Shown here piece after piece: positions 30,105-40,129 of a stretch of DNA of 64,000 nucleotides (position 1 is its first letter; each line of letters opens with the position of its first letter). Source of the DNA: Gemmatimonadaceae bacterium. GTDB taxonomy: Bacteria; Gemmatimonadota; Gemmatimonadetes; Gemmatimonadales; Gemmatimonadaceae. Below the pieces are notes generated by a model that was given only the letters and a program-made list of their open reading frames with translations, was not told where the DNA came from and made no database searches. The position numbers and the translations under genes are program-made. The stretch covers positions 1 through 64,000 of the forward strand of contig DATNEW010000050.1 of the NCBI GenBank assembly GCA_035606695.1, in the 5' to 3' direction.

Positions 30105-32756
30105 TCATGATGCTCGCAAGGCTTCGAGTGGATCGATGCGGGTGGCGCGTCGCGCGGGAATATAACCCGCGACGATGGCCACGACCGCGAGCAGTCCAGC
30201 CACGATGACGAACGTCGCCGGATCGCGCACGGTCACACCAAACACGAACGATTGGAGAAGACGTGTCGCGGCAAGCGCTGCCGGAACGCCGACGAGAATG
30301 CCAATGGCCGTCAACACCAGTCCCTGGCGCACCACGAGCCAGTGCACGGAGGCGCCGGACGCGCCGAGCGCGATGCGCACGCCCATCTCGTGATGCCGCT
30401 GCGTGACGAAGTACGAGATCACGCCGTAGATGCCGACCACGGCCAGCACCAGACCCGTGGCGCCGAGGAGTGTGAGGAGCCAGCGCATGAATCGGTCGAG
30501 CGCGAAGAGGTTGCCCACCGCCTCGTCCATCGTCGAGACCCCGGATATCGCGAGCAGCGGGTCGACCGATTTCACCGCGTTGCGAATCGCGGGCATCAGG
30601 GTCGTCACGGGAACGCCGCCGCGCACGATGAACGTCACGCCGCTGTTGCCCGACTGCGCCGCGGGCATGTACATCACTTCAGGAACGGCGTTCTGCGGTC
30701 CGTTGGAATGCACGTCCGCGGCGAGACCGACGACCTCGCGCCACCGATCGCCGCCATTCGAGATTCGTCGTCCCACCGGATCCTGCCCCGGCCACAGCTT
30801 GTCCGCGAGTCCGCGCGAGACGATCGCGACGAGTGGCGCCTTGGCGCCGTCGGCCGCGGTGAACGAGCGGCCGCGCAACACCGGAAGCTCGAGCGTCGTG
30901 AAGTACGCCGGACTCACGAAGCGCATGTCGGCGACCACCGCGCCTGCGTCGTGCCCGTCGCTGCCTTCGCGCTTCGCGGTCCAGTTCCATCCGCCGCCGT
31001 AGATCGGCGCGGTTTGCGTCCAGGTCACCCCACGCACGCCGGGAATGGCGCCGATGCCGGCCGTCAACTGCTCGAGTCCCGCCTCCAACCGTTCCGGACC
31101 GTCGTATCGCGCGCTCGGCAATCCGGTGCTGAACAGCAGCAGATTCTTCGTGTTGAAGCCGACGTCGACCGCGTTCACGGCTATCGCGCTGCGAATGAGC
31201 AGGCCGGCGCCCACCAACAGCACTTGAGTAAGGCACAGCTGTGCGATGACGAGTGCGTGGCGCACGCGATAGTTGCCGCCGCCTCGCGACTCGCGGCCGC
31301 CGTCGCGCAATGTCTGCTGCAGGTCGAGGCGTGCCGCACGGATGGCCGGAATGAGTCCGAACACGATCGCGCAGAACACCGCGAGTCCGAGCGTGAACAG
31401 CACCACCGGCCAATCGAGCCGAGCGTCGTGCAGACGTGGCACGGGCAGCGGACTGCTCACGAGGAAGCGCGTTCCAGCATACGCGACGGCTAGACCGAGC
31501 ACCGCGCCGCCGATCGCAAGCAGCACGCTTTCGACGAGCAGCTGCGCGATGATGCGACGACGGCTCGCGCCCAGGGCACCGCGCACGGCGATCTCGGTGC
31601 GGCGCACGGTGGCGCGGGCGAGCAGCAGGTTCGCGATGTTCGCGCAGGCGATGAGCAGCACGACCGCGACGGCGCCCATCAACAGATACAGGCTCTTGCG
31701 ATAATCGCCGAACAGCGCGTCCTCGAGCGTGCGCGCGATGATGCCGCCGTCGTAGAACGAATGTGGATGCTCGTGCGCGAGCCGCGTATCGATCTGCTGG
31801 AGCTGCGCGACGGCGGCGGTCGGAGCGACGCCGCGCTTGACGAGACCATAGACCCTGAGCTCGTGGTCGCCAAAATCGCTGAGGCGCGCGGCAGACGCCG
31901 CAAGCGGTACCCACGCGGCTTCGTCGGGTGGCTGCAGGAGATACTGCGACGGCGCGACACCGATGACCTGATACGACTGTCCGCTCAGCGTGATGCTGCG
32001 GCCGAGGATGTCGCGGGCTCCGCCGAAGCGGTTTCGCCACAGCGCCTCGGACAACACCACGACTTGCGGTCCACCGTCGCGGTCTTCGGCCTCCGTGAAG
32101 TACCGGCCGACGACGGGATTGATCTTTAGAACTTTCCAATAGCCGGCGCTGGCGTTGTACGTGAGGATGGGTGTTGGATCGCCGTGACCGGTCAGCGTGC
32201 GCCGTCCACCGCCGAACAGGGCGCCAATCTCCTCGAAGCCCGACGCCTCGCGCCGCCAGGTGTCGTAGTTGCCGAACGGCACGCTCCACATCTCGTCGTT
32301 GCCGTTGCGCTGCGACAGACGCAACACGCGGTCGGTGTTGGCGAACGGCAGCGGGCGAAGGAGCACCGTATTGACCACGCTGAAGATCGCGGCGTTGGCG
32401 CCGATGCCCAGCGCGAGTGTGATCAGCGCGATGCACGTGAATCCCGGCGCCTTCTTCAGCTGGCGCAGCCCGAACGCGACGTCCTGCTTCAGCGCATCCA
32501 TCCATTCCGCTCGCGTCATGTGTCGCTCCCGTTGTTGACTCAGCGAATACAACGTTTTGCTGATGCCTTCTACGTCGCCGAACTTCGCACGCGCCGCGGC
32601 GCATGCTCCGTCGAGTGTCATGCCGGCGGCAAGCAATTCATCGATCGTGGACTGCAGGTGAAACGACAGCTCGTCGTCGACGTCGCGCGCGGGATTCTCG
32701 CGGGCGAGTCGCAGATAGCGGCGCCATGGCGGCGGACGATCGTCGTCGAGCGTCAT
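30105..32756 (-). CDS. ADOP-type orphan ABC permease (MacB/FtsX-like), cassette 1
   Basis: 883 residues. An N-terminal cytoplasmic 'permease prefix' (about 1-90) includes 'DVDDELSFHLQSTIDELLAAGMT...ARAKFGDVEGI', the hallmark of acidobacterial duplicated orphan permeases. TM1 is near 105-130 (CIALITLALGIGANAAIFSVVNTVLL), followed by the MacB periplasmic core, an FtsX domain near 365-480, a second core and a last FtsX domain (about 755-875) ending in 'ARRATRIDPLEALRAS'. No ATP-binding subunit is adjacent, as usual for ADOPs. The preceding PadR gene ends 6 nt before its ATG, so the regulator and permease are one transcript. Substrate unknown. Confidence 0.9.
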   Translation of the reverse strand: MTLDDDRPPPWRRYLRLARENPARDVDDELSFHLQSTIDELLAAGMTLDGACAAARAKFGDVEGISKTLYSLSQQRERHMTRAEWMDALKQDVAFGLRQLKKAPGFTCIALITLALGIGANAAIFSVVNTVLLRPLPFANTDRVLRLSQRNGNDEMWSVPFGNYDTWRREASGFEEIGALFGGGRRTLTGHGDPTPILTYNASAGYWKVLKINPVVGRYFTEAEDRDGGPQVVVLSEALWRNRFGGARDILGRSITLSGQSYQVIGVAPSQYLLQPPDEAAWVPLAASAARLSDFGDHELRVYGLVKRGVAPTAAVAQLQQIDTRLAHEHPHSFYDGGIIARTLEDALFGDYRKSLYLLMGAVAVVLLIACANIANLLLARATVRRTEIAVRGALGASRRRIIAQLLVESVLLAIGGAVLGLAVAYAGTRFLVSSPLPVPRLHDARLDWPVVLFTLGLAVFCAIVFGLIPAIRAARLDLQQTLRDGGRESRGGGNYRVRHALVIAQLCLTQVLLVGAGLLIRSAIAVNAVDVGFNTKNLLLFSTGLPSARYDGPERLEAGLEQLTAGIGAIPGVRGVTWTQTAPIYGGGWNWTAKREGSDGHDAGAVVADMRFVSPAYFTTLELPVLRGRSFTAADGAKAPLVAIVSRGLADKLWPGQDPVGRRISNGGDRWREVVGLAADVHSNGPQNAVPEVMYMPAAQSGNSGVTFIVRGGVPVTTLMPAIRNAVKSVDPLLAISGVSTMDEAVGNLFALDRFMRWLLTLLGATGLVLAVVGIYGVISYFVTQRHHEMGVRIALGASGASVHWLVVRQGLVLTAIGILVGVPAALAATRLLQSFVFGVTVRDPATFVIVAGLLAVVAIVAGYIPARRATRIDPLEALRAS

Positions 32757-32762
32757 GGGCCG

Positions 32763-33107
32763 TCAGCCCGGCGCGTCGGTGGCCGCGACGATCTTTCCCA
32801 TCGCCGCGCTCATGCGCGCCCACGTCGCCAGCTCGGCGGCGAGCTGCCTTTTGCCCGCGGCCGTGAGCTTGTAATACTTGGCGCGGCGGCCGTTCTCGGT
32901 GAGCGCCCACTGCGCCTTGATCCACGCGCGATTCTCCATGCGATAGAGCGCCGGATACAACGAGCCCTCTTCCACCTGAAGCGCGTCCTCGGTCGTGCGC
33001 TGAATCCAGCGGGCAAGGCCGAAGCCGTGCATCGGCCCCCAGGAGAGGGCCTTGAGCACGATCAGGTCGAGGGTCCCCTGAAGCAGATCGACGTTCGTAC
33101 GCGCCAT
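32763..33107 (-). CDS. PadR-family transcriptional regulator, cassette 1
   Basis: 114 residues with the PadR winged helix: 'LLQGTLDLIVLKALSWGPMHGFGLARWIQ', 'EGSLYPALYRMENRAWI' (recognition helix start) and 'WALTENGRRAKYYKLTAAGKRQL' (wing), then a C-terminal dimer helix. PadR proteins are mostly repressors released by small molecules. It sits directly before an ADOP permease and 5 nt behind a perfect 21-bp palindrome, which points to autoregulation. Same gene pairing occurs at 53182 and 53645 in this window. Confidence 0.93.
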   Translation of the reverse strand: MARTNVDLLQGTLDLIVLKALSWGPMHGFGLARWIQRTTEDALQVEEGSLYPALYRMENRAWIKAQWALTENGRRAKYYKLTAAGKRQLAAELATWARMSAAMGKIVAATDAPG

Positions 33108-33112
33108 GATGC

Positions 33113-33133
33113 TCCCTTAGACGTTCTAAGGGA
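33113..33133. promoter_or_regulatory. Perfect 9-3-9 palindrome before the padR of cassette 1; candidate PadR operator
   Basis: Arms TCCCTTAGA and TCTAAGGGA are separated by CGT. The palindrome ends 5 nt before the padR start codon (read on the minus strand), so a bound dimer would block translation initiation or promoter clearance. Position and symmetry fit PadR autorepression; binding is inferred. Confidence 0.7.
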
Positions 33134-33186
33134 CAAGATGGTTGGAATGCGCCGTGGCGTCCAGCCTGTCGTCATGTCGTCGTGTC

Positions 33187-34504: not shown

Positions 34505-35173
34505 ATGGCCACACGAGCGCGCGCCGCCATCCTCTTCGACCTCGACGGAACCTTGGTCGATTCGATCACGCTCATCGTCAACTCGGCGCGATACGCCTTC
34601 GAAAAGCTCGGCCGCGAGTGGATCTCGGACGCCGCGTGGCGCGAAGGGATCGGGATTCCACTGCCGACCATGTTCATGCGCTTCGCCCGCGACGAAGCCG
34701 ATCGCGACGCGCTCATCGCCGCGTATCGCGAATACCAGCTCGAGCATCATGACCGGTTGATCAGCTGCTACGAGCACGTCGTCGAGACCGTGCATGAGCT
34801 TCGGGCGCACGGACACGAGCTCGCCGTCGTCACGAGCAAGTCCGAATGGCTGGCGTATCGCGCGCTTGCGCTCGTTGGCCTCGCCTCATGCATGGAAACG
34901 GTGGTCGGCCTCGACGCGTCTACTCGACATAAGCCCGATCCCGAGCCCGTATGGATAGCACTGCAGCGGCTCAACTGTCCGCCCGAACAAGCGCTCTTCG
35001 TGGGGGACTCGGTGCACGACGTGATGGCGGGAAATGCCGCCGGCGTGGCCACCGTGGCGGCCACCTGGGGCGCATTCCACCGGACCGAGCTCGAACCCGG
35101 TAACCCAAGTCATTGGCTGGAAAGCATTTCCGACCTGCCTCAGCTGATTCGAGACACCGTTCAAACCTTCTGA
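34505..35173 (+). CDS. HAD-family phosphatase, phosphoglycolate-phosphatase-like
   Basis: 222 residues. Motif I 'ILFDLDGTLVDS' carries the nucleophile and acid/base Asp pair; a helical cap follows; motif II is the Thr/Ser of 'LAVVTSKSE'; the Lys of motif III is in 'TRHKPDPEPV' and motif IV is 'ALFVGDSVHDVMAGNAAG'. This is the Gph/PpaX/beta-PGM subfamily. Substrate is probably a small phosphoester such as 2-phosphoglycolate or pyrophosphate, not proven. ATG 34505 chosen over the GTG three bases earlier. The 34485-34504 gap holds a divergent start region. Confidence 0.9.
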   Translation: MATRARAAILFDLDGTLVDSITLIVNSARYAFEKLGREWISDAAWREGIGIPLPTMFMRFARDEADRDALIAAYREYQLEHHDRLISCYEHVVETVHELRAHGHELAVVTSKSEWLAYRALALVGLASCMETVVGLDASTRHKPDPEPVWIALQRLNCPPEQALFVGDSVHDVMAGNAAGVATVAATWGAFHRTELEPGNPSHWLESISDLPQLIRDTVQTF

Positions 35174-35219
35174 CCCGCGGAACCATCCAAGTGATTGTCT
35201 GGATGGAGTTTCCGAACAC

Positions 35220-35798
35220 ATGGCTGCTGTGGCCATTATCGAAGCATCTTCAAATCACATCGGCAACGGCGATTCGGACGTCGCGCGCGCGGCGGCCGGA
35301 GATCGAGTCGCGTTCGAGCGACTATATCGACAACATGTAAACAAGGTGTATTCTCTCTGCGCTCGCATGGTCAACGACCGCACGCGCGCCGAGGAGCTCA
35401 CGCAGGACGTCTTCGTCCGTGCGTGGCAAAAGCTGAATCTCTTTCGCGGCGAAAGCTCGTTCGCGACGTGGCTTCATCGACTCACGGTCAACGTCGTGCT
35501 CAACGCGCGAAAGACGGATGGACGGCAACGCACACGCTTCGAGGAGAACGATGACGAAGCAGGCGGCATGGATGCCCACGCTGGTGTGGTCGGCATGCCG
35601 CTCGCCCCGGGCGATCTCCTCGATCTCGAGGAAGCGATCACCCGGCTTCCTCCAGGCGCGCGCCGCGTCTTCGTCCTCCACGACGTCGAAGGCTACAAAC
35701 ACGAGGAAATCGCCGAGATGCTCGGCGTGACATCAGGGGCCACGAAAGCGCAGTTGCACCGTGCGCGACTCCTGTTGCGGGAGGCACTGAACCGATGA
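35220..35798 (+). CDS. ECF-type RNA polymerase sigma factor
   Basis: 192 residues with sigma-2 ('RVAFERLYRQHVNKVYSLCARMV', 'AEELTQDVFVRAWQKLNLFRGESSFATWLHRL') and sigma-4 ('LEEAITRLPPGARRVFVLHDVEGYKHEEIAEMLGVTSGATKAQLHRARLLLREAL') and no sigma-3, as in ECF/group 4 factors. The 'GATK' before the recognition helix replaces the common 'GTVKSRL'. The stop overlaps the anti-sigma ATG by 4 nt, so the pair is coupled. Likely targets include the DUF4097 genes downstream; no promoter consensus can be given from one copy. Confidence 0.96.
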   Translation: MAAVAIIEASSNHIGNGDSDVARAAAGDRVAFERLYRQHVNKVYSLCARMVNDRTRAEELTQDVFVRAWQKLNLFRGESSFATWLHRLTVNVVLNARKTDGRQRTRFEENDDEAGGMDAHAGVVGMPLAPGDLLDLEEAITRLPPGARRVFVLHDVEGYKHEEIAEMLGVTSGATKAQLHRARLLLREALNR

Positions 35799-36598
35799 CG
35801 ACACCAAACTCGAGCCAGTTCGATTGTGGTCAATTCGCCGACGCGCTCGCGGATGTTCTCGAGCGTGAGGTGAGCGAGCCGACACGCTCCGCCGTGGAAG
35901 CGCATGCGCTGGCGTGCGCCGAGTGTGGCGCTCTGCTCGCTGACTTGCGCAAGCTGCGTATCGACGCGGCGAATTTGCCGGCGCTTACGCCATCGCGTGA
36001 TTTGTGGAATGGGATCGCGGATCGGATCGAGACGCCGGTGGTTGAATTGGGCGTCGGGGCGTCGGGGCGTCGGGGCGTCGGGGCGTGGAAACGGCGTGTG
36101 GCGTTCGGTATCGCTGCGGCGGCGTTGGTCGCGGTCACGGCGACCATCACGCACGAGCTGACAAAGCGTTCAATGGCGTCTGTTGCGCCGCCGGTTGCCG
36201 TGACGCCATCGAAGTCGCCAACGCAGCCGACTCAGGTCGCAACGATCTCTCCGCCAACCGCCTCGACGCCTCGACGCCTCGACGCCTCGACGCCTCGACA
36301 CCCCGACGCCTCGACGCCCATACGCCCCGTCTCAACCAAACCCTCCATCGAACAGACCTACAGCTCCGAGATCAAGCGGCTTCGCACCATCGTGAATTCG
36401 CGCCGCGGCGATCTCGATTCGGGGACGGTGGCCGTCATCGACAAGAATCTCGCGATCATCGACAATGCGATCGTGCAGTGCCGGATCGCGCTCGCGAAAG
36501 ATCCGCACAGCCGCTTCCTCATCGAGTCGCTGAACGACGCGCTCGATACCAAGGTTCAACTGCTCCGCACGGCGGCCGCGCTGCCGACGAGGATGTGA
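35795..36598 (+). CDS. Membrane anti-sigma factor with ZAS zinc motif
   Basis: 267 residues. The N-terminal cytoplasmic domain has the zinc-binding anti-sigma motif H37-x3-C41-x2-C44 ('HALACAECGALLADL'). One membrane helix lies near 101-119 ('RVAFGIAAAALVAVTATIT'). A Pro/Thr/Ser-rich periplasmic linker and a helical C-terminal domain ('YSSEIKRLRTIVNSRRGDLDSGTVAVIDKNLAIIDNAIVQCR') follow. Two octanucleotide tandem repeats lie in the coding sequence, on either side of the membrane helix (encoding about residues 85-98 and 156-177); since 8 is not a multiple of 3, slippage would shift the frame. It should hold the ECF sigma inactive until a signal. Confidence 0.9.
   Translation: MTTPNSSQFDCGQFADALADVLEREVSEPTRSAVEAHALACAECGALLADLRKLRIDAANLPALTPSRDLWNGIADRIETPVVELGVGASGRRGVGAWKRRVAFGIAAAALVAVTATITHELTKRSMASVAPPVAVTPSKSPTQPTQVATISPPTASTPRRLDASTPRHPDASTPIRPVSTKPSIEQTYSSEIKRLRTIVNSRRGDLDSGTVAVIDKNLAIIDNAIVQCRIALAKDPHSRFLIESLNDALDTKVQLLRTAAALPTRM
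36048..36087 (+). repeat. Octanucleotide tandem repeat GGGGCGTC in the anti-sigma gene (5 units)
   Basis: Units: TGGGCGTC, three exact GGGGCGTC, then GGGGCGTG. It encodes the Gly/Val/Arg-rich stretch just before the membrane helix. The unit is nearly the reverse complement of the octamer at 36261-36324. Confidence 0.85.
36261..36324 (+). repeat. Octanucleotide tandem repeat CCTCGACG in the anti-sigma gene (about 8 units)
   Basis: Units: CCTCGACG four times, CCTCGACA, CCCCGACG, CCTCGACG, CCCATACG. Three units make 24 nt, giving an 8-residue periodicity (DASTPRRL, DASTPRHP) in the protein. Lies in the periplasmic linker region. Confidence 0.85.
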
Positions 36599-36605
36599 GC
36601 GCTTC

Positions 36606-37535
36606 ATGAAACGCATTTCGGTAGTCCTGTCGCTGGCGCTGGGGCTCGGTCTCACGACCGGCCTGGCACGCGACGCCGCGGCGCAGCGGCACACGATTCG
36701 GAGCGACGCGCGGTCGCGCATCGACACGACCGTCGCGTTCGATCGCAACGGAACCGTGACGGTCACCGCGGGCAACGGCGACATCCTCGTCACCGGCTCG
36801 CAGGCGGGCACCGTTCACGTGCGCGCGTCGAGCGACAACAACAACCTGCAATTTGAATCGTCGCCCGCGCGCATGAGCATCGAAATCACCAACCGGCACG
36901 GAGGCGACAACCGCATCGAGCTCGCGGTGCCGATCGGCGTGCGCGTGATTCTACGCTCGCAGTCGGGCGACATCTCGGTGCGCGGGACGCGTGGAGAAAT
37001 CGAGGCGTACGCGCAGAGCGGCGACGTTCTCGTCGAAGACGCGACTCGCCTCGCGGTGAACACGCTGTCGGGCGGCATCAGCGCCGGCGCGATCAACGGC
37101 GACGTGTCGATTCAATCGACGAGCGGCGACGTGAAGCTGTCCGACGTGCGCGGCGACGTCGACGTGCAGACCGTGAGCGGCGACGTCGACATGCGCGGCG
37201 TCACGGCCAAAGTCGTCCGTGCCAAGACGACGAGCGGCGACGTGACCTATGACGGAACGATCGACAAGGCCGGCCGATACGATCTCTCGACGAATTCGGG
37301 AGACGTCGGCCTGCACATCCCGCGCGATGCGAGCGCGCAGCTCACCGTATCGACCTGGAACGGCGAGATCCAGAGCGATTTCCCGATCACGCTGCGGCCG
37401 GGCGAGCACGGCATCGGATCGTCCAACTCCAAGCGGCTCACGTTCGAGATCAACGGCGGCGGCGCGCGCATTTCGGCTGAAACCTTCAGTGGCGATGTGA
37501 CTGTCTCATCCAACGGACGCGGGGCTCGGCCCTGA
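36606..37535 (+). CDS. Exported DUF4097-family protein, copy 1 (SGD repeats)
   Basis: 309 residues with a signal peptide MKRISVVLSLALGLGLTTGLA. The body is the right-handed beta-helix-like DUF4097 fold, seen as a regular series of short strands each ending in a turn: 'TAGNGDILVTG', 'SQSGDISVRG', 'AQSGDVLVED', 'TLSGGISAG', 'STSGDVKLSD', 'TVSGDVDMRG', 'TTSGDVTYDG', 'TNSGDVGLHI', 'TFSGDVTVSS'. The SGD turn recurs about every 20 residues. Biochemical role of DUF4097 is not established. It begins 8 nt after the anti-sigma stop and is probably in the same transcript. Confidence 0.9.
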   Translation: MKRISVVLSLALGLGLTTGLARDAAAQRHTIRSDARSRIDTTVAFDRNGTVTVTAGNGDILVTGSQAGTVHVRASSDNNNLQFESSPARMSIEITNRHGGDNRIELAVPIGVRVILRSQSGDISVRGTRGEIEAYAQSGDVLVEDATRLAVNTLSGGISAGAINGDVSIQSTSGDVKLSDVRGDVDVQTVSGDVDMRGVTAKVVRAKTTSGDVTYDGTIDKAGRYDLSTNSGDVGLHIPRDASAQLTVSTWNGEIQSDFPITLRPGEHGIGSSNSKRLTFEINGGGARISAETFSGDVTVSSNGRGARP

Positions 37536-37573
37536 CCGGTCCGACACCGCACACTACGAACAGGATCCCCACC

Positions 37574-38359
37574 ATGCCTCGGTTTACTTCGGTTGTCTTG
37601 CTCGCGGCGCTGGCCGCACCCGCGTTCGCGCAGGGCGGAGACTTTCACTGGGAAAAGGCGCTGGCCGCCGGCAGCAATGTTTCCATCAGCAACATCAATG
37701 GCGACGTGAGAGTCATCCCCTCGACGAGCGGAAAGGTGGAGGTGATCGGCACCAAGCGCGGCAACAGCAGCAGCTTCGGCCGAATTCACGCGGAAGTGCA
37801 CGAGTCCTCGCGCGGCATCAACGTGTGCGTGCTGCGTGACGACAGCGATGACAGCTGCGACGAAGACGGCATCCACAGTCACAGCCACAACGGCCGCGAC
37901 TGGGATCATGTGAGCATGACGCTCGATGTGGCGGTTCCCGCGAACGTGGTCGTCGCCGCCAACACGGTGAGCGGAGACATCGACATGAACGGCGCGCATG
38001 GCGACGTCTCCGCGAACAGCGTGAGCGGCGATCTCAAGCTTCAACATTTGCATGCGTCGGCGGTTCGCGCGAACACCGTGAGCGGCGACATCGACGTCGC
38101 GGTGGACGAGCTCACCGGCAACGGCGCCTTCAACTTTCATTCGGTGAGCGGTGACATCACGCTCGAAGTGCCGCGCGACTTCGGCGCCGATCTCACGATG
38201 TCCACGGTGAGCGGCGACATGAACAGCGACTTTCCGGTGACGCTCGGCAACGGACGTATGAGCAGGCGGTCGCTGAGTGCCCGGATCGGCGGCGGTGGAC
38301 GGCGCCTCGACGTAAGCACCGTCAGCGGCGATCTTAGGTTGCGTCAGGGAAGCCGGTGA
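37574..38359 (+). CDS. Exported DUF4097-family protein, copy 2 (TVSGD repeats)
   Basis: 261 residues with signal peptide MPRFTSVVLLAALAAPAFAQ. Turns read 'NINGDVRVIP', 'TVSGDIDMNG', 'SVSGDLKLQH', 'TVSGDIDVAV', 'SVSGDITLEV', 'TVSGDMNSDF', 'TVSGDLRLRQ', so nearly every rung carries V-S-G-D. An internal insert ('CVLRDDSDDSCDEDGIHSHSHNGRDWD') is rich in Asp, His and Cys and may bind metal. Same predicted beta-helix as the neighbours. It follows copy 1 by 38 nt and its stop lies 8 nt before copy 3. Confidence 0.9.
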   Translation: MPRFTSVVLLAALAAPAFAQGGDFHWEKALAAGSNVSISNINGDVRVIPSTSGKVEVIGTKRGNSSSFGRIHAEVHESSRGINVCVLRDDSDDSCDEDGIHSHSHNGRDWDHVSMTLDVAVPANVVVAANTVSGDIDMNGAHGDVSANSVSGDLKLQHLHASAVRANTVSGDIDVAVDELTGNGAFNFHSVSGDITLEVPRDFGADLTMSTVSGDMNSDFPVTLGNGRMSRRSLSARIGGGGRRLDVSTVSGDLRLRQGSR

Positions 38360-38367
38360 GAAACTCC

Positions 38368-39156
38368 ATGAAACGCTCTCTTGCAGCACTCACGCTCATC
38401 GCGACCATTGGGCTGCCCGCGGCCGGGCAGACGCGTCAGAGCGGAGACGGATTCAACTGGACCGGCCGTGTTCCGGCCGGGCGCTGGATTCACGTCAAGA
38501 ATTTGAACGGACCGATCACCGTCGGTGCGTCGACCAGCGACAACGTCGAAGTCGTCGCGACCAAGCACTGGCGACGCGGCGATCCATCCGTCGTGCACTT
38601 CTTCAACGAGAAGAATGGCGACGACGTGACGATCTGCGCCGTCTGGGGCGATGCCACGCGCTGCAACGATGACCACAACAACAACTCGGGCGGCCGGCGC
38701 AATCGGAACAATGACGTGAGCGTCGAGTTTCGCGTGCTCGTGCCGCGCGGCGTGAAGGTCGAGATGGAAACCGTGAACGGCGACGTGACGGTCGACGGCG
38801 CCACTTCTGAAGTGCGCGCTGAGAGCGTGAATGGTGAAGTGAGCGTCGGGACGAGCGGCGGGCGCGTCAACGCGGAGAGCGTGAACGGCAGCGTCCGCGC
38901 ACAATTGGGCAAGCTCGACTCGGACGGGGACATGAAGTTCGAGACCGTCAACGGCAACGTGATCGTCGAGTTTACGGGTGAATTCGGCGGCGACGTCGAT
39001 CTCGAGACCGTGAACGGTTCGCTGAACACGAACTTCGAGATGACGGTGAGCGGCCGGCTCGACCCAAAGCACATTCGCGCCCATATCGGCCGCGCGGGCG
39101 GCCCGCACATCAAGCTCGAGACAGTGAACGGCAACGTGGAGCTTAGAAAGCGCTAG
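38368..39156 (+). CDS. Exported DUF4097-family protein, copy 3 (TVNG repeats)
   Basis: 262 residues from ATG 38368, giving the signal peptide MKRSLAALTLIATIGLPAAGQ; a GTG 12 nt upstream overlaps the previous stop and is the alternative. The turns here are N-G rather than S-G-D: 'NLNGPITVG', 'TVNGDVTVDG', 'SVNGEVSVG', 'SVNGSVRAQ', 'TVNGNVIVEF', 'TVNGSLNTNF', 'TVNGNVELRK'. An insert 'CAVWGDATRCNDDHNNNSGGRRNRNND' sits where copy 2 has its Asp/His/Cys insert, with two Cys. Function unknown. Repeat wording is uniform within the copy. Confidence 0.9.
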   Translation: MKRSLAALTLIATIGLPAAGQTRQSGDGFNWTGRVPAGRWIHVKNLNGPITVGASTSDNVEVVATKHWRRGDPSVVHFFNEKNGDDVTICAVWGDATRCNDDHNNNSGGRRNRNNDVSVEFRVLVPRGVKVEMETVNGDVTVDGATSEVRAESVNGEVSVGTSGGRVNAESVNGSVRAQLGKLDSDGDMKFETVNGNVIVEFTGEFGGDVDLETVNGSLNTNFEMTVSGRLDPKHIRAHIGRAGGPHIKLETVNGNVELRKR

Positions 39157-39176
39157 CCTGAATCGCTTGAACCGGG

Positions 39177-39215
39177 GAATTCCGAGCGGAGGTGCGAAGC
39201 GCCGAAGTGAGGAAC
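39177..39215. repeat. Dispersed short repeat copy (GAGCGGAGGTGCGAAGCGCC family)
   Basis: GAATTCCGAGCGGAGGTGCG then AAGCGCCGAAGTGAGGAAC. The closest match is at 19504. It separates DUF4097 copy 3 from copy 4. Confidence 0.75.
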
Positions 39216-39298
39216 GATAAACCGCCGGTAAACGGCCGGTCGCAGCACAAGTAACTTTGGCGGGTGATCGCGCGTATTCTCCAACAGGAGGATATGCC

Positions 39299-40129
39299 AT
39301 GATCACCCGCCGTGTTTTCACGCTCGCCGTTGCCGCCGCCGCCATGTCCGGGTGCAGTCGCGCCGGCTCGAACGATGACGCATTTCGTTGGACACAACCG
39401 ATGCAACCCGGCGCAGTCGTGCACATCCTCGACGGCTCGGGCAACGTCACCGTCCATCGCGCCGCGGGCAACGAAGTCGTCGTGAGCGGCAGCACGAGAT
39501 GGCGCCGCGGCCGCCAAAGCGACATCCATTTCGCCGTGACGCGAGCCGGCAACGACTACTACGTGTGCGCCATGTGGCGCTCGAGCGGCCGGTGCGGCGC
39601 GCGCGGGTATCGCGGCGCGCGAAGCGGCGGCTTCCTGGCAATGTTCAGCCTGTTCCATCGCTCGAGCGACGCCGTCGCGAACATGGTCGTCGCAGTCCCG
39701 CCGGGCGTCGCCGTGGACGGCCAGGCCACCAACGGATCCGTTGACGCGGACGGCGTCACCGGCGGCATTCGCGCTCACACGCTCAACGGGAACGTGCGCG
39801 CGACGAACGTGTCCGGCCCGCTCTCGCTCAAGACCATGAACGGCGACGTGCATTTGTCGACCGACTCGCTCGCGCCGAGCGATTCGATTTCGGTCGAGAC
39901 GATGAACGGCGGCATCTTCGCGGACCTGCCGGCGACCATGCAAGGCGCGTTCGACTTGCGTGTCACCAACGGTTCCGTCCATAGCGACTTTACGCCGAGT
40001 GGCGGATCGAGCACCGTCACACGGGGGCACCTCGTCGCGCAGATCGGGAGCTCGAGCCGCGTCGTGCGTATGCACACCATGAACGGCGACGTGACCGTGA
40101 CCGCGCGCGGCGGACCCTCGTCGCATTAG
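39299..40129 (+). CDS. DUF4097-family lipoprotein, copy 4
   Basis: About 276 residues. ATG 39299 follows an AGGAGGA ribosome binding site; the signal MITRRVFTLAVAAAAMSGC is of lipoprotein type with the acylated Cys at 19 and a twin-Arg start. Rungs read 'DGSGNVTVHR', 'ATNGSVDADG', 'TLNGNVRATN', 'TMNGDVHLST', 'TMNGGIFADL', 'VTNGSVHSDF', 'TMNGDVTVTA'. So the family is extended by a membrane-anchored member. It lies behind a dispersed repeat and a 143-bp gap with its own promoter possible, so may not be co-transcribed with copies 1-3. Confidence 0.87.
   Translation: MITRRVFTLAVAAAAMSGCSRAGSNDDAFRWTQPMQPGAVVHILDGSGNVTVHRAAGNEVVVSGSTRWRRGRQSDIHFAVTRAGNDYYVCAMWRSSGRCGARGYRGARSGGFLAMFSLFHRSSDAVANMVVAVPPGVAVDGQATNGSVDADGVTGGIRAHTLNGNVRATNVSGPLSLKTMNGDVHLSTDSLAPSDSISVETMNGGIFADLPATMQGAFDLRVTNGSVHSDFTPSGGSSTVTRGHLVAQIGSSSRVVRMHTMNGDVTVTARGGPSSH

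Follow-up and report, generated by a model that had tools for sequence, protein, structure and literature searches.

An ECF sigma factor operon of Gemmatimonadaceae with predicted exported Toastrack proteins whose turn ladders switch chemistry as a block

We analyzed a 64,000-nucleotide stretch of DNA from a Gemmatimonadaceae bacterium (the window; contig DATNEW010000050.1, positions 1 to 64,000) containing an operon in which genes for an extracytoplasmic function (ECF) sigma factor and a zinc-motif anti-sigma factor are followed by four tandem genes for Toastrack (DUF4097) proteins, designated C1 to C4. The operon probably encodes an autoregulated envelope switch, made up of the ECF sigma factor and a membrane anti-sigma factor, whose main products are exported Toastrack beta-helices with turn ladders of one chemistry. 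The chemistry of the ladder switches as a block between lineages and between paralogues. The Toastrack fold and family are already published, which bears on the possible undescribed surface assembly raised in the first-pass annotation; the block switch among orthologues is the part that we would call new.

Results

Layout of the operon

The window comes from an assembly of 5.9 Mb (G000). Its nearest named relatives are metagenome-assembled genomes of Gemmatimonadaceae or Gemmatimonadota. The gene order is HAD hydrolase, ECF sigma factor, anti-sigma factor, C1, C2, C3, C4 and Bax1-I, with the following operon features:

35160–35190, forward strand: predicted ECF promoter of the operon, TTCAAACC-N17-ATCCAA, an exact match to the pattern conserved upstream of the sigma genes of relatives
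35220–35798, forward strand: ECF sigma factor, regions 2 and 4 (Pfam PF04542, 61.7 bits; PF08281, 64.7 bits)
35795–36598, forward strand: anti-sigma factor with zf-HC2 domain (PF13490, 23.1 bits, cut-off 22.2), HxxxCxxC motif, one hydrophobic segment (from hydropathy) and a C-terminal part beyond it
36606–37535, forward strand: C1, Toastrack (DUF4097), predicted exported, Ser ladder SGD (PF13349, AlphaFold2 model, ladder statistics)
37574–38359, forward strand: C2, Toastrack, predicted exported, VSGD turns (PF13349, motif shuffles, tree and synteny)
38368–39156, forward strand: C3, Toastrack, predicted exported, [TS]VNG turns, the conserved core copy (PF13349, AlphaFold2 model, alignments)
39299 (ATG)–40129, forward strand: C4, Toastrack, predicted exported, possible lipoprotein, TMNG/TLNG/ATNG/VTNG turns (PF13349, motif shuffles, tree)

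The sigma factor, at 192 residues with both Pfam regions above cut-off, has the make-up of an ECF sigma (regions 2 and 4 only, ~190 residues), and its orthologues are 48–90% identical. The anti-sigma factor carries the motif HALACAEC at residue 37 and a hydropathy of 1.85 at residue 102, as in class I zinc anti-sigma factors. Among 92 anti-sigma open reading frames (ORFs) from the window and its relatives, HxxxCxxC occurs in 87 and a hydrophobic segment above 1.6 in 73. PF13349 matches C1, C2, C3 and C4 with 90.6, 67.3, 24.9 and 43.6 bits, all above the cut-off of 22.9. For C3 we took ATG 38368 as the start; GTG 38356 is the start of the longest ORF. The first-pass annotation of this DNA had given the spacing of these genes correctly for the 4-nt overlap of sigma and anti-sigma genes and for the gaps of 38 and 8 nt, and had the anti-sigma/C1 gap as 8 nt where it is 7 nt.

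Predicted fold and export of the Toastracks

AlphaFold2 models of C3 and C1 have mean predicted local distance difference test (pLDDT) values of 90.1 and 87.4, with nearly all residues outside the signal region in strands. The best Foldseek match in the PDB is 4qrk for both proteins (E 5.8e-10 for C3, 9e-9 for C1), followed by 3pet, 3lyc and others, most of them titled putative adhesins; a PDB sequence search with C1 and C3 profiles returned no credible relative. Both models look like single-strand beta-helices of the 4qrk kind. Each of C1 to C4 starts with a hydrophobic stretch of the signal-peptide kind and lacks a strong hydrophobic segment further on; judged by this hydropathy, none would lie on the cytoplasmic side as expected of Toastracks in PSP/Lia systems. 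The ordered, exported beta-helix proposed in the first-pass annotation is thereby supported by signal-peptide-like N-termini for all four copies and by confident models for C1 and C3.

Two points weigh against this assignment. The template modelling (TM) scores are modest (0.48 on 4qrk for C3; 0.26 on 4qrk and up to 0.51 on 3lyc for C1). In addition, the study that defined Toastracks (DUF4097/DUF2154/DUF2807) with PSP/Lia systems (mSystems 2024; PMC11237479) infers an intracellular place for the domain, which the signal-peptide-like N-termini of C1 to C4 do not fit.

One residue of the turn switches chemistry as a block

The first-pass annotation had described every rung turn as uniform within each protein. 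Turn motifs do lie far above what composition predicts: SGD occurs seven times in C1 (shuffled mean 0.33), VSGD six times in C2 (0.04), [TS]VNG six times in C3 (0.05) and TMNG three times in C4 (0.01), and none of 2000 shuffles per protein reached the observed counts. "Every" was too strong, since exceptions occur in C1 (NGD, NGE, SGG, RGD) and C2 (INGD, TSGK, AHGD) and the turns of C4 are a mix of TMNG, TLNG, ATNG and VTNG. A further Toastrack, encoded away from the operon, has another uniform turn, GSG. The turn residues of C1 are 57, 120, 138, 155, 173, 191, 210, 231, 252 and 295, and in the C1 model the predicted strands end at or beside the residue before the turn glycine, about every 18 residues in mid-protein. 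The same residue occupies the same turn position on successive rungs, as in asparagine ladders.

We aligned 99 distinct C1 orthologues (40 extra regions, 30 of them with a C1-type gene, had added 25 distinct sequences). Over the six central rungs, the residue before the turn glycine is mostly Ser in 53, Asp in 18 and Asn in 15 proteins, and mixed in 13. Agreement among the rungs of one protein exceeds that of column-shuffled alignments by 0.561 of the possible range (z 38.9, 99 sequences); at every other offset from −8 to +8 the excess is at most 0.069 (0.069 at +2, 0.061 at −1). When residues are pooled into acid, amide and hydroxyl classes and nine rungs are compared, agreement reaches 0.84 where 0.43 would be expected; the corresponding values for the 46 proteins without a Ser-type ladder are 0.75 and 0.39. 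Glu or Gln is frequent on inner rungs where outer rungs carry Asp or Asn. Rungs 155 and 191 are both acidic in 19 of these 46 proteins, both amide in seven, and crossed between acid and amide in nine. Because Glu or Gln at rung 155 pairs with Asp or Asn at rung 191, it is the chemistry, not one residue, that is kept. In C3 the ladder Asn is nearly fixed (NNNNNN in 80 of 86 rows), and what varies is position −1, where Thr replaces Val on every one of the six rungs in locus L043, on five of the six in L142, and on some, mostly adjacent, rungs in several other rows.

To explain the uniform turns, the first-pass annotation had offered either expansion of rungs within each gene or selection on the turn face. 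It is very improbable that the uniformity was left by recent expansion of rungs, or by gene conversion, within each gene. Such a process would account for turn motifs uniform within each protein, and C1 holds a 27-bp imperfect repeat (37121–37194; Tandem Repeats Finder, TRF). However, a residue is present at all ten turn columns in 97 of 99 C1 rows, and the comparison among relatives that the annotation had proposed therefore gives a constant rung number, in keeping with the near-invariant six-rung ladder of C3. Outside the turn, different rungs of the same C1 protein are no more alike (identity 0.210) than different rungs of different proteins (0.203); the same rung in a C1 protein of another ladder class has an identity of 0.292. 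Orthologous Toastrack copies also cluster by operon position, not by genome. Constant rung number and the absence of rung homogenisation leave rung expansion unsupported: the rungs are old and fixed in number. Because the rungs of one protein are not alike outside the turn and their number does not vary, selection on a stacked turn face is the favoured explanation, as the within-protein concordance across the 99 C1 orthologues also indicates.

Several observations count against selection. On a C1 tree built without the turn columns there are seven changes among Ser, Asn and Asp, and on a tree of sigma plus C3 (71 rows) three; with so few switches, grouped together on the tree, the C1 rows are not independent. 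The 13 mixed ladders do not conform, and when exact residues are scored in the 46 proteins not of Ser type the excess drops to 0.302, with 0.112 at the next offset. Turns often contain Asn, Asp, Ser or Gly. The small number of switches would be expected if the ladder reflected turn propensity and common descent, with Ser, Asn and Asp all suiting the position and clades having drifted among them. We regard this account as unlikely: other turn positions on the same tree are almost without concordance (the +2 and −1 values above), acid or amide character is mostly kept between rungs 155 and 191, and in C3 the Val-to-Thr change runs across the rungs of L043 and L142. The strength of the argument for selection is this contrast of the ladder residue with all other positions on the same tree.

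Five named loci carry Asp-type ladders; the title of one (L131) is plainly marine. An acidic, cation-binding rail in Asp-type ladders is only an idea.

The conserved core of the operon

A search of 151 genomes of the order with C3 gave a match in 140, and 40 neighbourhoods and 66 named loci were then examined. After merging, 82 distinct loci contained the sigma gene, 73 of them complete downstream. All 73 keep sigma, anti-sigma, C1 and C3, with a C1-type gene always the first Toastrack; the presence of C3 is built into the search, but the leading position of C1 is not. Toastrack copies number two in 47 loci, three in 21 and four in five, one of which (L140) looks frame-split, leaving four true four-copy loci. 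Among these loci only the window and its closest relatives (L038, L082 and L089) show the order C1-C2-C3-C4. On the sigma plus C3 tree, the window, L082, L089 and L088, which shares a contig with L038, form one clade. Among the examined loci C2 is confined to the closest relatives of the window and L041, and C4 clusters with third copies of other Gemmatimonadaceae. Because the core is kept in 73 of 73 loci and C2 and C4 are restricted, we take sigma, anti-sigma, C1 and C3 as the core and C2 and C4 as additions. Of the 73 complete loci, 23 have HAD upstream and 27 have Bax1-I downstream. In a class-level draw, a C3 profile matched in 156 of 198 genomes, a figure that counts any sufficiently similar Toastrack and not the operon.

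In one Gemmatimonas sp. UKL202c contig (L145, 3515–6716), only short ORF fragments represent the sigma, C1 and C3 genes of the operon, perhaps through decay or a sequencing error. Another genome of the same family (G068; L235 and L236) has the sigma gene and two promoter sites and no C3 match; its sigma site is near a contig end, so that the missing match need not mean loss.

A conserved promoter precedes the sigma gene

Upstream regions were taken from 89 loci with sigma; seven had no anchor for cutting, and the remainder reduced to 75 distinct sequences. The motif upstream of sigma reads TTCAAACC, 17 bases, RTCYNA. Its first element is present in 51 of the 75 (shuffled mean 0.13) and the exact long form in 48. 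A relaxed pattern, CA(A)ACC-N17-RTC-N2-A, occurs in 69 (shuffled mean 0.17, maximum 2), as does the shorter CA(A)ACC-N17-RTC (shuffled mean 0.71, maximum 4); CAACC replaces CAAACC in most sequences from other families of the order. Across 67 genomes of the family the exact long form has 82 sites, compared with one for the reversed pattern. In the window the promoter shares bases with the stop codon of the preceding HAD gene, and its position weight matrix score of 35.5 is the best of 155,511 bases scanned. A GGAAC-type −35 element at 35179 was rejected for its wrong spacing, and GGAAC with N15–18 occurs at the shuffled level (5 of 75 against 5.46). A sigma-70-type promoter scan found two weak sites, both inside genes, and a single terminator-like site within chance.

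Autoregulation is usual for ECF sigmas. The comparative data fit autoregulation of this ECF sigma from a promoter with an AAC-type −35 element. Control of the DUF4097 genes by the sigma factor, as proposed in the first-pass annotation, is strongly supported at the level of sequence conservation, by the promoter pattern before sigma and before an unlinked Toastrack gene.

A wider candidate regulon

With at most one mismatch, the motif occurs at 11 places in the genome of the window (one for the reversed pattern): one at the operon, one before an unlinked Toastrack gene and four before PadR or MacB/FtsX genes. The unlinked Toastrack (C13, 61076–62125; PF13349, 74 bits) has a site with one mismatch just upstream. 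It has relatives across the family, and the motif (CAAACC or TTC[CG]AACC, N16–18, RTC-N2-A) lies upstream in 22 of 30 listed loci, compared with 1 of 356 control segments taken from those loci. The window's own one-mismatch copy is not among the 22, and the fixed cut was misplaced in three loci with short flanks (L174, L191, L193).

From the 82 family sites we examined 40 chosen as not obviously at the operon. Nine lie at sigma operons (L251 judged by its anti-sigma and C1 genes). Three precede Toastracks, and a fourth precedes a doubtful one without a Pfam match (L264). PadR or MacB/FtsX genes follow eight sites, spread over five genera; PF00144-type serine hydrolases follow four (L236 assigned by likeness to L233), DUF5916 proteins three (L261 by likeness) and assorted genes the remaining 12. 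Of the four near-matches before PadR or MacB/FtsX genes in the window's own genome, one is in the window:

33117–33147, reverse strand: possible second target promoter, one mismatch, just before the PadR gene (motif scan)
32763–33107, reverse strand: gene for a PadR-type regulator following that site; relatives have similar PadR-like genes (family named by reading)
30105–32756, reverse strand: MacB/FtsX-type permease downstream of PadR (PF12704, 141 bits; PF02687, 108 bits)

This site is weak alone, because 1.28 window matches are expected by chance at up to two mismatches. At the four PadR/MacB-FtsX places in the genome, every permease is among the MacB_PCD matches. The 5.9 Mb genome has at least 150 matches to MacB_PCD (PF12704), a very large set of MacB/FtsX permeases.

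Sites before PadR/MacB-FtsX permease or serine-hydrolase genes suggest an envelope-stress regulon. Two facts weigh against this: MacB-type genes are very common, so that some of their sites may be chance, and five of the 11 near-matches in the genome look like chance. The permease link is only suggestive for the former reason. The Toastracks could instead be a surface adhesin or coat whose amount the sigma factor merely sets, with no envelope-stress function. The crystal entries of DUF4097/DUF2807 type titled putative adhesins would agree with a coat, as would the exported look of all four copies. "Adhesin" in those titles is, however, an annotation, and sites before MacB/FtsX permeases and serine hydrolases better fit envelope stress; we therefore judge a coat alone to be unlikely.

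The genome also contains a second cluster (L080, contig C14, 5092–7167) of ECF sigma, anti-sigma and a borderline DUF4097 gene (22.0 bits, cut-off 22.9), followed by PadR-like and MacB-type genes. This gene mix points the same way as the PadR/MacB-FtsX permease link. Because the cluster exists, the motif could be shared with another sigma, which tells against control by the operon's sigma alone. The motif might then be read by another ECF sigma or by several, while the neighbouring sigma controls something else, and the motif-bearing PadR promoters are indeed scattered. We consider this distinctly unlikely: in 69 of 75 relatives this sigma gene itself has the motif upstream, the motif varies along with the sigma clade (CAAACC in one family, CAACC in most others), and autoregulation is the general habit of ECF sigmas.

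Repeats in and around the operon

Three repeat features were noted:

36049–36086, forward strand: 8-bp tandem array, 4.8 copies, in the anti-sigma gene between the zinc domain and the hydrophobic segment (TRF)
36259–36318, forward strand: 8-bp tandem array, 7.5 copies, in the anti-sigma gene, linker after the hydrophobic segment (TRF)
39176–39218, forward strand: dispersed genomic repeat, 43 nt, between C3 and C4 (60 matches in its own genome)

A one-unit change in either 8-bp array would shift the reading frame. The anti-sigma gene of L082 holds two different 8-bp arrays at roughly these positions, and those of L038 and L089 hold none. Similar arrays occur at ~20 places in the genome (40 overlapping matches; reversed control 0). 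Phase variation of the switch is possible, or the arrays may simply mark repeat-prone linkers. The repeat before C4 recorded in the first-pass annotation is a real, dispersed element within the 142-nt C3–C4 gap; its 60 genome matches, itself included, are often in pairs ~57 nt apart, resembling repetitive extragenic palindromic (REP)-type repeats. C4 itself has what we take to be a weak lipobox, MSGC, after a TRRVF start resembling a twin-arginine translocation (Tat) signal.

Discussion

Proposed mechanism

Without stress, the zinc-motif domain of the anti-sigma factor, judging from the protein families, would hold the sigma factor at the inner membrane. Damage to the envelope, detected by the outer part of the anti-sigma factor, would release sigma. 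The sigma factor would then bind CA(A)ACC-N17-RTC, whose conservation is observed, and transcribe its own operon, and sigma, anti-sigma and Toastracks would rise together. Its other targets may be the unlinked Toastrack gene and, in several species, PadR/MacB-FtsX permease genes and genes for serine hydrolases. The Toastracks are predicted to be exported and to fold as rigid single-strand beta-helices, which could be scaffolds for protection or sensing, placed at the periplasmic face or on the cell surface, and might feed back on the anti-sigma factor, as LiaX does on LiaFSR. In each helix the turn residue would stack over its equivalent one rung away, with selection keeping the stack hydroxyl, amide or acid.

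A larger claim, that this is a Gemmatimonadota-wide envelope-stress regulon in which the pure ladder of each Toastrack is a functional binding face swapped as a unit, is speculative and rather doubtful. If true, the ladder would be a hydroxyl, amide or acidic rail, the last of which could bind divalent cations, and the turn face would be the system's tunable code for ligands or partners. DUF4097 is found widely, and for most of its members no function is known. The promoter described here, readable across an order, links it to one sigma factor and offers a regulon that can be tested in a group where genetics is scarce. With six to nine distant positions of one protein evolving as a block, the ladder is a clean case for theory of repeat-protein evolution and for beta-solenoid design.

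Comparison with known systems

The Toastracks described here share Pfam family, fold and a link to envelope-stress operons with those of the PSP/Lia study (PMC11237479). They differ in their signal-peptide-like N-termini, in having no other domain and in occurring as two to four tandem copies, and the operon is headed, unlike the PSP/Lia systems presented there, by an ECF sigma and a zinc-type anti-sigma factor. That study mentions an operonically linked sigma factor in the context of DUF2089, and the terms "ECF" and "Gemmatimon-" are absent from the main text of the paper. No Pfam match to PspA, PspC, LiaI-LiaF-TM or two-component genes was found in the six operon genes and four neighbours.

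LiaX of Enterococcus is described as a main product of an envelope-stress regulator whose system is switched on by loss of the LiaX C-terminus (PMC11601895). The Toastracks match the C-terminal portion of the NCBIfam LiaX model, but these partial matches (28.1, 20.5, 34.3 and 14.9 bits) fall far short of the cut-off of 350, and LiaFSR, as described there, is a three-component system, not an ECF one. The LiaG family of the lia operon is also a DUF4097 protein of an envelope-stress operon; its model scores 57.3 bits at best, compared with a cut-off of 285.

Pairs of ECF and class I anti-sigma factors are overabundant in Gemmatimonadetes, at about 79% according to one study (PMC7406223), and the pair in the window resembles them in its neighbouring genes and zinc-type motif. 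"DUF4097" and "adhesin" do not occur in the main text of that study, and none of the papers searched contained both DUF4097 and Gemmatimonad-.

The asparagine ladders of parallel beta-helices, for example in PL6 alginate lyase, are the closest parallel to the turn ladder. The PL6 study describes them as thought to be stabilising, with a nearly invariant Asn in T2 turns (PMC6879350). The Toastrack ladders resemble them in carrying one residue type at the same turn of successive rungs, and differ from the ladders described there in that the identity of the residue switches as a block among orthologues, between Ser, Asn/Gln and Asp/Glu.

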